Part shown: piece after piece, positions 5,349-24,386 of the stretch
How the letters are laid out: every line of letters starts with the position of its first letter
Numbering within the stretch: the first letter of the stretch is position 1
From: Levilactobacillus tongjiangensis
GTDB taxonomy: Bacteria > Bacillota > Bacilli > Lactobacillales > Lactobacillaceae
Assembly: GCF_003946345.1 (NCBI RefSeq)
Contig: NZ_RHNY01000017.1
Coordinates: forward strand, 1-53,702
DNA: 53,702 nt
Reading direction: 5' to 3'
Notes under the pieces: model-generated
What the model was told of the DNA's origin: nothing
Database searches by the model: none
The model's input: only the letters and a program-made list of their open reading frames with translations
Translations under genes and position numbers: made by a program

Positions 5349-5843
5349 ATGTTAATTTTCCTATGGGCAGAGAGCCAGGGCCACGTGATTGGCCACCGGG
5401 GCGAGCTGCCATGGCACTTGCCCGCAGACATGCACTTCTTCAAAACGGTCACGACCGGTAACACGATTGTGGCCGGCGCCCGGACGTTTGCTAGCTTTCC
5501 CAGTGCGTTACCCAACCGGACCAATGTCGTGGTAACCCACCACGATGCCAGCGAGTTTCCAGCCGGCGTGGTCGTATTGAACTCACTGGATGCTGTCCGC
5601 GATTACGCCCGCGAACGCCCCGAAGAAAAAATTTTCGTAGTGGGTGGGGCGCAAATCTTTGCCGGCCTCATGGACGACGTCGATTTGCTCTACAGAACGA
5701 CGATCGATGCCGGGTTTGACGGGGACACCTGGATGCCCACCATTGATTACAGCCGCTTCCAGCGAATCAACCGACAACCGGGTATCCGTAACGAAAAGAA
5801 TCCTTACGATTACACGTTTGAACAATTCCAACGTATCCAATAA
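5349..5843 (+). CDS. dfrA: Dihydrofolate reductase
   Basis: Reduces dihydrofolate to tetrahydrofolate with NADPH, closing the thymidylate cycle started by thyA 21 bp upstream. 164 residues. Visible features are the N-terminal strand followed by GHRGELPWHLPADMHFFK (substrate pocket, with the conserved Trp and Asp), TIVAGARTFASFP (NADPH site) and EKIFVVGGAQIFAGLM (glycine pair that binds the cofactor). ATG start with AAGGAGG at 5334-5340. Target of trimethoprim. Followed by a strong terminator. Confidence 0.96.
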   Translation: MLIFLWAESQGHVIGHRGELPWHLPADMHFFKTVTTGNTIVAGARTFASFPSALPNRTNVVVTHHDASEFPAGVVVLNSLDAVRDYARERPEEKIFVVGGAQIFAGLMDDVDLLYRTTIDAGFDGDTWMPTIDYSRFQRINRQPGIRNEKNPYDYTFEQFQRIQ

Positions 5844-5850
5844 ATAATTT

Positions 5851-5886
5851 GTGGCCGGCGAAATTTCTTTCGCTGGCCACTTTTTC
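5851..5886 (+). terminator. Terminator of the cca-thyA-dfrA unit
   Basis: A 13-bp stem (5851-5863 with 5873-5885 region; arms GTGGCCGGCGAAA and TTTCGCTGGCCAC) followed by TTTTT. It lies seven bases after the dfrA stop. Confidence 0.85.
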
Positions 5887-5900
5887 ATACTGGTGTTTTG

Positions 5901-6090
5901 TTGCCGCCTCCGGTTGCCGGACGTGGTGGCCGCTGTGGGGACCGCCTACGGCCTGAGAAACGGTCCTTCGGCTCGACTTGAAGCCCCGCTAAAATCGGCG
6001 GGGCTCCAAGCTCGTCCCGTGAGATAAGTTCGGTGCCCCACCGAACTTATCTCACCACCACTGCAACCACTACGCCCGGCAACCTGCGGC
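5901..6090 (-). repeat. Structured intergenic repeat, copy C (inverted)
   Basis: Read on the minus strand this 190-base segment has an outer stem (both ends contain GCCGC and GTTGCCGG), hairpin 1 with a perfect 16-bp stem TGAGATAAGTTCGGTG and loop GGG, then CGGG, then hairpin 2 with a 13-bp stem (CTTGGAGCCCCGC with one G-T pair) and loop CGATTTTA, then CGAGC, a third weaker stem, and the motif GTCCCCACAGC (complement of 5932-5942). The same order occurs in copies at 6391-6566 and 24183-24358, although the sequence of the stems is mostly different. It sits directly behind the dfrA terminator, between converging genes. Confidence 0.75.
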
Positions 6091-6213
6091 TACATATAAG
6101 CTTAAGTGTAAGTAGTATATTTCAACTTATTTAACGGTATCTGTTCAAGCAATTCAAAATATTACGAACGTGTTTGCACGCCTGTTAATCTGTACGTAAA
6201 CGCACACTATCTC

Positions 6214-6264
6214 AAAAAAAAAAGGAGCATGAAGTTCCCAAATTTCAGGAATCATTCGTGCTCC
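6214..6264 (-). terminator. Minus-strand terminator between the two repeat copies
   Basis: GGAGCA (6224-6229) pairs with TGCTCC (6259-6264), with inner TTCC/GGAA pairing. On the minus strand it ends in a run of ten T. The nearest minus-strand gene is the hemolysin-III gene ending at 6606, so its transcript may run through repeat copy A before stopping here. Confidence 0.7.
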
Positions 6265-6390
6265 AAAATACAAATTTAAAATTCGTTAAGCCCTAGTCAT
6301 CATTAGCTAACAACTATCATCGTGCATGTCACTGAGACCTTGCCAGCTACTCTCAAAATCTACGCTTCACTGCAATAATCCACAATTTCA

Positions 6391-6566
6391 GCGAAGGTGG
6401 GCAGGGGTGGAGCCAGCTGTGAAAATGGCGTTAACTAGCGCTTCTTGCTAGTTTAGGCCATGGGCGTATTTGAAGACACGGCATTTTCGCGGCTTTAAAT
6501 CGAGCGAGAAGCCCGTATTTTGGCTGAAGCGTCCCCACAGCAGGCGCCGCCCCTGGCTGCCGAAGC
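6391..6566 (+). repeat. Structured intergenic repeat, copy A
   Basis: Outer stem between GCGAAGGTGGGCAGGGGTGG (from 6391) and its imperfect complement ending at 6566; hairpin 1 at about 6426-6460 with 12 of 14 pairs; ATGGGCG; hairpin 2 at about 6468-6500 with a TTTT loop; CGAGCGAGAAGCCCG; motif GTCCCCACAGC at 6531-6541. It is clearly related in sequence to the copy at 24183-24358, sharing an uninterrupted run from TTGGCTGAAGCG through CCCCACAGCAGGC. Together with copy C it makes up most of the 720-base gap between dfrA and the hemolysin-III gene; the stretch 6091-6213 between them shows nothing recognisable. Confidence 0.85.
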
Positions 6567-6605
6567 GGCCATTCTAGCACATCTATCGCTTTTGAACCTA
6601 AGTAA

Positions 6606-7247
6606 TTAAGCGTAGAACAGAATTGAGAAATACATCAGACCAGTCCCCAGCATCACAAACAGATGCCAGATAACATGGCCAAACGGCACACCCTTAAAGC
6701 TGTACAACACTGCCCCCACGGTGAATGACACTCCACCGAAGAATAGGAGGGCAAATCCAACCGGTCCCAGACCCACGTACAACGGTTTGATGCCCATCAG
6801 ACACATCCAGCCCATCACCACGTAGATGACGGTGGAAACCTTTTGAAACCGGTTCAGCCAGATGGCCTTGTAGACGATCCCAATAATAGCCATGGCCCAG
6901 ATGATACCGAACATGGTCCAGCCCAGCGCACCGCCAACCACCAGTAGACTGTACGGCGTATAGGTTCCAGCAATCAGTAAGTAAATCGCGCAGTGATCAA
7001 ATATTTGAAAGACGTGACTCGCGCGGGTAAAGTACAAACTATGGAAAAGGGTTGAAGCGAGGTAAAATAGCACCAGAATGGCTCCGTAGATGGCGAAGGT
7101 CGTCATCCGGAGGGCGCCACCCTTACCGTGAGCCTGTAACAGTAGAATGACTAATCCGGCAATGCTTAAGGCAGCACCAATCCCGTGAGTGGCGGCGTTC
7201 AAAACTTCATTTACAATCTGGTAGGTGCGGCTACGTTCTTTTGTCAA
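6606..7247 (-). CDS. Hemolysin III / PAQR family membrane protein
   Basis: 213 residues with seven predicted membrane helices, the fold of the YqfA/hemolysin III branch of the PAQR superfamily. Conserved family residues are visible: HGIGAALSIAG in helix 1, STLFHSLYF and FDHCAIYLLIAGTYTP (His and Asp near the membrane face, probable metal ligands), and near the C-terminus GHVIWHLFVMLG. Function in lactobacilli is not established; the hemolysin name is historical. TTG start at 7247 with AGGAGG 12 bases upstream. Transcribed towards the dfrA unit. Confidence 0.88.
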   Translation of the reverse strand: MTKERSRTYQIVNEVLNAATHGIGAALSIAGLVILLLQAHGKGGALRMTTFAIYGAILVLFYLASTLFHSLYFTRASHVFQIFDHCAIYLLIAGTYTPYSLLVVGGALGWTMFGIIWAMAIIGIVYKAIWLNRFQKVSTVIYVVMGWMCLMGIKPLYVGLGPVGFALLFFGGVSFTVGAVLYSFKGVPFGHVIWHLFVMLGTGLMYFSILFYA

Positions 7248-23842: not shown

Positions 23843-24182
23843 ACTAAAAGTTGAAGTGCTCGTTGTAATCCAGCATTAGTTAGCAGCGATATTGTTAATT
23901 GGTTGCGCTCCGGCGGCCAGGGATTCTGATTGCGTTTTGACATGATCATCGTTGAGGCCTTATACAAACTATATTGCACTGCAGTTGGTAGTAGACGCGG
24001 GGCTTTCAAGACATCAAGCTGTGTCGGCATCGGTTCAACCCATAGCTGACAAACGGTAAGTGAGAGGAGACAAATTAGGCTGCCTAATTCACACATTAAT
24101 ATTGTTATCTGACTCTCTAAGCAGTTAAACAGCACACGTTAAGTTTGGTAGCACCTATTTTCCGTTAAACTCATCAATTTGA
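23843..24182. other. Intergenic gap between lacX-like gene and repeat copy B
   Basis: About 340 bases. A minus-strand open frame (24135 to 23839) would encode about 98 residues ending AGLQRALQLLV, but no start in it has a ribosome binding site. It may be gene debris; I do not call it. Confidence 0.35.
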
Positions 24183-24358
24183 GCGGAGGTGGTCAAGGGG
24201 TGGGCCGGCCGTGAAAATGACTTAAGCTAGCGGTTTATGCTAGCTTAAGTCATGGGCGCCTTTGAAGACACGGAGTTTTCGTGGCTTCAAAGCGAGCGAG
24301 AAGCCCGCTCTTTGGCTGAAGCGTCCCCACAGCAGGCCCACCCCCTGACCACCGGAGC
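24183..24358 (+). repeat. Structured intergenic repeat, copy B
   Basis: The cleanest copy. Outer stem: GCGGAGGTGGTCAAGGGGTG at 24183 pairs with the strand ending at 24358 (CACCCCCTGACCACCGGAGC). Hairpin 1: TGACTTAAGCTAGC at about 24218-24231, complemented perfectly at about 24239-24252. ATGGGCG follows. Hairpin 2: CTTTGAAG and CTTCAAAG with inner CACG/CGTG and a TTTT loop (about 24259-24292). Then GCGAGCGAGAAGCCCGCTC, and the motif GTCCCCACAGC at 24323-24333. It lies between the converging lacX-like and plsY genes. Confidence 0.85.
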
Positions 24359-24386
24359 ACGAACACTCACATAATATTTAACAGAA

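Follow-up and report, generated by a model that had tools for sequence, protein, structure and literature searches.

An apparently undescribed and very numerous family of folded ~190-nt elements in Levilactobacillus, linked in part to MITE-like units

The structured repeats found in a 53,702-nt stretch of Levilactobacillus tongjiangensis (NZ_RHNY01000017.1, positions 1 to 53,702, here called the window) are members of a very large and apparently undescribed family of folded elements of ~190 nt, which is present in Levilactobacillus and in some of its relatives. A sequence-only reading had reported two structured copies, inverted to each other, in one intergenic region, with a third copy elsewhere. 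The two copies were recovered by a covariance model search on the strands first given, with refined ends, and the third was located as well, while the observation itself turned out to be much larger than that reading described. Three weaker rows of the covariance model in the window were antisense echoes of these copies, named C, A and B, so that the total is three. The features are as follows:

5848..5886, plus: terminator-like hairpin and T run of gene 5349-5843, directly before copy C (by eye)
5901..6094, minus: copy C, a type 2 structured arm in the CACGGGACGAGC form (covariance model 172.9 bits, E 2.2e-46; RNA fold z -12.3)
5932..5942, minus: GTCCCCACAGC of copy C, giving the 3' side of the inner GGG(A)/(T)CCC stem and of the outer stem's inner end (motif scan, family alignment)
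5977..6010, minus: hairpin P3 of copy C (inverted repeat and fold)
6019..6055, minus: hairpin P2 of copy C, with a perfect stem of 17 bp around a 3-nt loop (inverted repeat)
6095..6385, no strand: spacer between the divergent arms C and A, containing a terminator-like hairpin with an A/T run at ~6214-6264 (minus-strand reading, by eye)
6386..6572, plus: copy A, a type 1 structured arm in the CATGGGCG form, paired 5'-to-5' with copy C (covariance model 155.5 bits, E 1.3e-41; RNA fold z -5.2)
6425..6461, plus: hairpin P2 of copy A (sequence and fold)
6465..6502, plus: hairpin P3 of copy A (boundaries set by eye on the family alignment)
6531..6541, plus: GTCCCCACAGC of copy A (motif scan)
24178..24364, plus: copy B, a type 1 structured arm (covariance model 176.9 bits, E 1.8e-47; RNA fold z -9.2)

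Copies C and A sit between two convergent ORFs, 5349-5843 (plus) and 6606-7247 (minus), which from a reading of their translations look like a dihydrofolate reductase and a haemolysin-III type membrane protein, respectively. Each arm has its 3' end towards the 3' end of the gene closer to it, and the two 5' ends are opposed across 291 nt, a spacer in which the inverted-repeat search reported none at the settings used. The 11-base motif that had been placed just before the closing strand, GTCCCCACAGC, is present in all three copies, at 5942-5932, 6531-6541 and 24323-24333; with up to one mismatch it has four matches in the window versus 0.82 expected, and four or more were reached in 0 of 100 shuffles. 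Pairing in the first hairpin of copy C (P2), previously counted as 16 of 16, extends to 17 of 17 complementary positions around the 3-nt loop.

The exact motif occurs 89 times in the 2.72-Mb genome, compared with 2 occurrences of its reversed control. Eighty-three of these copies were used to build the covariance model and six odd ones, truncated or aberrant, were left out; the alignment, consisting of exact-motif copies alone, hence leans toward that motif. Across the genome the model retrieves at least 150 copies, all with E below 1e-31. A scan of 400 kb of the same genome gave 91 rows, comprising 62 non-overlapping copies by a rule-based count and 29 rows that were dropped, each being antisense to a better row. 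Extrapolation from these 400 kb suggests ~420 copies per genome, and the repeat takes up 10,877 of the 400,000 bases, so that a single structured repeat, for which we found no description in Rfam or the literature, makes up ~2.7% of this chromosome sample from a lactic acid bacterium. The 62 copies include a third arm type of ~157-167 nt, scoring ~50-72 bits. At one locus of G032 (C1:2036158-2036537; L165 8158-8537) two third-type arms stand in tandem with their starts 213 nt apart, where G000 has one, which probably represents a tandem duplication.

Further copies, which the sequence-only reading had proposed to seek in related genomes, are present in 34 of the 35 genomes of the genus. The number of arm matches is 0 in G025, two in G012 and ten in G004, and ranges from 31 to at least 73 in the other 32. 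Matches were found in at least 65 of 251 genomes and at least 10 of 40 genera of the family, and in at least 12 of 295 genomes of the order, of which 11 lie within Lactobacillaceae and one, weak (4.6e-6), outside; these family and order counts are lower bounds because 10 or 8 candidates were scored per genome. In a pattern scan of named genomes, the matches listed include many Levilactobacillus species and Lactiplantibacillus mudanjiangensis, while those in unrelated phyla, also many among the matches listed, are probably due to chance. No arms were found on plasmids with two arm queries or on phages with one, and a MITE query against plasmids gave no match. With hundreds of paralogous copies, spread over at least 34 genomes of the genus and these genera of the family, covariation, strand and post-transposition selection become directly measurable.

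Structured, high-copy intergenic repeats are known from a relative of the lactic acid bacteria, Streptococcus pneumoniae, in the form of BOX and SPRITE elements. The arms described here are also structured, high-copy and intergenic, but would be set apart through Rfam, whose 4227 families gave no match in the window at the gathering level. At three further loci only sub-threshold Rfam rows were obtained (E 0.034-0.98), far below the gathering scores; those lying over copies were L073 on the minus strand (E 0.35) and mir-34 (E 0.034, twice, from one copy present in two loci). No description of the repeat was found in the open-access literature, a scope outside which most subscription papers fall; the sequence-only reading had likewise been unable to name the family. 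An excerpt of PMC2864571 speaks of 104 candidate RNAs. In the part of the MITE review PMC10969869 that was available, BOX and SPRITE of S. pneumoniae are named, and no word starting with "lactobacill" or "IS4" occurs. As far as the corresponding part of PMC2817692 describes them, REP/BIME repeats with their RAYT are likewise high-copy intergenic palindromes of alternating orientation, but the elements studied here are ~190 nt long with several helices, and the distribution of Y1 transposases differs from that of the arms. The Y1 family PF01797 was detected in 23 of the 35 genomes and is absent from, for example, G002, G003, G021 and G022, although these contain at least 73, at least 73, at least 73 and 41 arm matches, respectively; a Y1 transposase is therefore not found wherever the repeats abound, as it would be for REP with RAYT, and was rejected as mobiliser.

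The common fold consists of a long outer stem (P1), a GGG(A)/(T)CCC stem closing the inner junction, and three hairpins, P2, P3 and the short P4, with a mostly conserved T.T mismatch in P2 and a mostly conserved A.G mismatch in P3. The 3' strands of the inner stem and of the innermost part of P1 are contributed by GTCCCCACAGC. The 83 aligned copies have a mean pairwise identity of 65% (maximum 93%), and pairing is present in 94.3% of the cells over 64 pairs, 48 of which show changes on both sides. Double-change cells amount to 770, compared with 231.7 +/- 12.8 in 500 shuffles and 71-133 after sliding the partners by 1-3 columns; the structure string was derived from the same alignment, which favours the true over the slid versions, though hardly by this much. 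Covariation is thus far above both controls, as expected of a structured RNA family, and the claim that structure was kept without sequence, the mark of selection on an RNA or on folded DNA, is supported.

A probable origin of the arms is suggested by related genomes, in which arm pairs lie within MITE-like units of 0.5-0.6 kb, bounded by a 14-bp terminal inverted repeat (TIR) and target duplications of 7-9 bp. Five pairs can be aligned into units, at most ~590 bp long, with the ends CTAAAGGTTGAAAG...CTTTCAACCTTTAG or close variants; four of them have a common spacer of ~73 nt and one is internally deleted. The two-arm unit was mapped as follows:

G000:C23:116242-116674, G000:C23:63723-64158, G000:C1:50523-50951 and G031:C56:72021-72457: two-arm unit of ~570-590 bp with the conserved ~73-nt spacer

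The exact TIR was found in 23 of the 35 genomes of the genus, its reversed control in none. Among 24 TIR pairs, counted at a spacing of 120-1600 bp with up to two mismatches per TIR and with all loci read, eight are flanked by an exact 7-9-bp duplication (for example TTTGACTAA, TTATTAGC, TAAGTGAA and GACGCGAC), one of them in the window's own genome (L106, 266 bp), and at the other 16 an exact duplication is absent. Two arms between the TIRs, always in the "-+" arrangement, are found in five units (L186, L285, L294, L328 and L330); others hold one arm or none. A 224-bp TIR unit of G013 (L331 424-647) is flanked by an exact duplication of 8 bp and gives no match to the arms, indicating that arms are not an obligatory part of MITEs with this type of TIR.

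The same 14-bp TIR forms the ends of an intact 1559-bp insertion sequence in G014, which is flanked by an 8-bp duplication (CTGATTAA) and encodes a transposase of 450 aa matching NCBIfam NF049925 (IS4 family, 470 bits) and Pfam DDE_Tnp_1. This IS carries no arms, so the link between arms and IS consists of the TIR alone. The units of the relatives thus combine TIR, target duplication and ends in common with an autonomous element, and the comparison with MITEs, already suggested by the sequence-only reading, established a link for part of the family but yielded no named MITE family. The features of the G014 IS would agree with the ISPepr1 subgroup of the IS4 family: the subgroup table of PMC2266710, the portion relied on here, gives 1500-1600 bp, a 7-8-bp duplication and the ends YT-AA-YTT, and the G014 IS has a fitting length and duplication, an IS4 transposase and the ends CTAAAGGTT, in which the single departure is a G at base 7 where the table has Y. 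The arms form no part of this IS. Shortened IS4 relatives were observed at L359, L360, L371 and L372 (G017 and G029), with C-terminal transposase pieces adjoining the TIR (131-153 aa aligned, 58-68% identity). A multi-copy element of G011 (L333-L339, L341 and L343, at contig ends) shares this TIR and shows two differing ends, both with terminator-like hairpins; the assembly lacks its interior, as the contigs break ~40 nt inside the element.

Compared with bacterial MITEs as the available part of PMC10969869 presents them, the units are alike in being short, non-coding and intergenic, with TIRs, target duplications, high copy number and folding transcripts, and their TIR is likewise common with an autonomous IS. 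They are unlike in containing two separately folded, multibranched and divergent arms, and in that most arms are without a TIR and the fold of one strand is nevertheless under selection. A TIR within 140 nt at up to four mismatches was found for only 14 of 63 arms from a hand-picked list, versus 3-4 of 63 in controls. For the three copies of the window the best TIR candidates within 140 nt have 6, 5 and 7 mismatches out of 14. Around single arms, 8-mers common to both flanks occur in 12 of 83 copies, with 11.5 expected, and thus give no sign of duplications. An IS4 transposase was not found in the 0.68 Mb (overlaps included) of the window's own genome that were searched. The TIR-less arms may stem from older units whose ends have decayed, or from units that belong to other TIR families. 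We consider it probable that the arms originated in MITEs, an origin that we infer for the TIR-less copies, those of the window included.

An IS3-type fragment by a TIR-like end on Lactiplantibacillus carotarum plasmids was ruled out as the autonomous element: among the relatives listed, all but the two plasmids themselves begin to match the 300-base query only around its base 40, which places the TIR outside the fragment. A reverse transcriptase does not fit the distribution of the arms either, since 25 of the 35 genomes, among them G000, have no match to PF00078. An IS5-type transposase was observed near a TIR-like end on a plasmid of Lacticaseibacillus paracasei.

The explanation that we favour is that the ~190-nt arms spread as divergent pairs in short, non-autonomous MITE-like units (TIR - arm - spacer - arm - TIR), which an IS4-family, ISPepr1-like transposase would move in trans. 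After insertion the TIRs and often one arm would be lost, and selection would then maintain, at the site of the arm, the fold that its own sense strand adopts. The sense strand might act as a folded non-coding RNA whose transcription runs outwards from the intergenic side, and perhaps insulates the neighbouring gene. For part of the family, the common TIR, the target duplications and the intact IS with the same ends are observed directly. Taken as a whole, we give this explanation about an even chance; that RNA rather than single-stranded DNA acts is the somewhat likelier alternative, while an insulating role for the neighbouring gene is doubtful.

The step of selection in place was examined at orthologous loci of two relatives, G031 and G032, which have 93% and 90% identity to the window's genome over aligned syntenic blocks. 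The main test comprised 15 orthologous groups without a TIR-like end, with 19 comparisons and flanks of 110 nt (1 of 38 flank sides was dropped as unalignable). Changed sites amount to 247 of 3574 (6.9%) in the arms versus 556 of 3824 (14.5%) in the flanks, and the arm is slower than its flanks in 19 of 19 comparisons. Single changes at paired sites exchange Watson-Crick pairs with G-U in 37 cases and with A-C in 15 (p 0.003), unpaired sites show no strand bias (C/T 35, A/G 38), and 10 of 13 double changes kept pairing. The constraint is imperfect: of 67 single changes that fell on paired sites and involved at least one standard pair, 30 disrupted it in one species. The complete set of 18 groups adds one group whose G032 copy has the TIR at one mismatch and two with ends at four mismatches, and gives 7.3% for arms versus 13.9% for flanks, a slower arm in 21 of 23 comparisons, 49 G-U versus 21 A-C changes and pairing kept in 14 of 18 double changes; with two TIR-bearing groups included, the counts become 52 versus 21 and 14 of 19. 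The slower divergence of the arms, the compensatory changes and the preference of G-U over A-C indicate that the sense-strand fold is selected in place, and we regard selection on this fold as probable.

The same loci bear on the possibility that the arms are functionless relics, dead parts of MITEs whose fold stems from folded founders, with template switching in palindromes or gene conversion restoring the pairs. Many copies are truncated or were lost through deletion between species, and the six odd motif copies mentioned above are truncated or aberrant. Copy C itself is missing at the corresponding site in G031 and present in G032, which may be a loss because at least three of nine other aligned absences are internal deletions that left both edges. 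Retained pairing in 14 of 18 double changes would also be expected from quasi-palindrome correction. Template switching, however, has no preference for G-U over A-C, yet such a preference is seen at the TIR-less orthologs next to unbiased unpaired sites, and arm divergence is half that of the flanks, so that we judge relics to be unlikely.

With selection in place still preferred over relics, the paralogous copies inform on which strand folds. Over the 64 pairs of the 83 copies, G.T pairs number 318 and A.C pairs 87. Without three pairs of inherited wobble the numbers are 184 versus 83 (in 33 pairs versus 13), and with the helix arms aligned by Watson-Crick pairing alone 198 versus 56. RNA energy is lower for the sense strand in 77 of the 83 copies. 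The bias is present whether the gene on the 5' side is co-directional with the arm (43 copies, G.T 96, A.C 53) or opposed to it (35 copies, G.T 81, A.C 27), five copies having no called gene on that side, which indicates that the arm's own strand matters and not the strand transcribed by the neighbour.

A single-stranded DNA element, whose folded sense strand would be recognised in its DNA form by, for example, a protein of mobility or replication, would account for this independence from transcription. RNA constraint is expected to give a G.T to A.C ratio above ~2-4 to 1, and the observed ratio of only ~2-4 to 1 was judged weak for it. Promoters are not enriched upstream of the arms either (score 8.25 sense, 8.27 antisense, 8.14 shuffled). 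The orientation of the copies in the 400 kb is even, though (31 "+" and 31 "-"), implying no lagging-strand preference; Y1 transposases are absent from 12 of the 35 genomes, several of them arm-rich; and IS4-type transposases act on double strands. A DNA element of this kind therefore appears slightly less probable than relics.

The arrangement of the arms relative to genes raises the further possibility of a cis-acting structure in the mRNA of the neighbour, such as a 3'-UTR stabiliser, a processing site or a terminator, as proposed for REP-like repeats. Neighbouring copies are mostly divergent, 5'-to-5': copy pairs up to 700 nt apart in the 400 kb comprise 17 "-+", three "--" and no "+-" or "++", and those in the G031 and G032 pieces 14 "-+", one "+-" and one "--". 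Genes on the 3' side are nearer, with median gaps of ~90-150 nt versus 345-410 nt on the 5' side (59 copies between called ORFs, from a hand-picked element list, with ORFs overlapped by the element over more than 35% removed beforehand), and 11 of 83 copies have the terminator of the facing gene immediately 3' of the arm, versus 1-3 in other positions. Both observations speak for a role in the neighbour's mRNA. A cis-acting structure would, on the other hand, predict opposite G.T/A.C biases in sense and antisense arms, and the reverse was found, the own sense strand folding for both directions of the 5' gene; moreover, a sense hairpin with a T run within ~140 nt 3' of the arm, as an intrinsic terminator would have, is present in just 1 of 83 copies. 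We hold this explanation to be quite improbable.

Spread by reverse transcription, retron- or intron-like, could explain why the odd motif copies are 5'-truncated or aberrant, but 3' truncations would be invisible among them because the search used a 3' motif, and both the distribution of PF00078 and the TIRs with target duplications of the readable units, which indicate a DDE transposase, leave this route with hardly any credit.

Returning to MITE-spread arms with a fold selected in place, a broader reading may tentatively be offered, to which we assign rather less than even odds: the arms would constitute a class of functional folded non-coding RNA (or single-stranded DNA fold) that is new, and that IS4-type MITEs have brought to several hundred sites in each genome of Levilactobacillus and, in a patchy manner, to other Lactobacillaceae. 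It would now work at individual sites through its own strand, independently of the neighbouring genes, so that transposon arms would have been domesticated on the scale of the genome. Should the sense strand be expressed, few structured RNAs of bacteria would be expected to match it in number; otherwise, the family would provide a clean system for the study of selection on DNA folding. G025, G012 and G004, with their 0, 2 and 10 matches, represent natural comparison strains for the function or the mobiliser of the arms.
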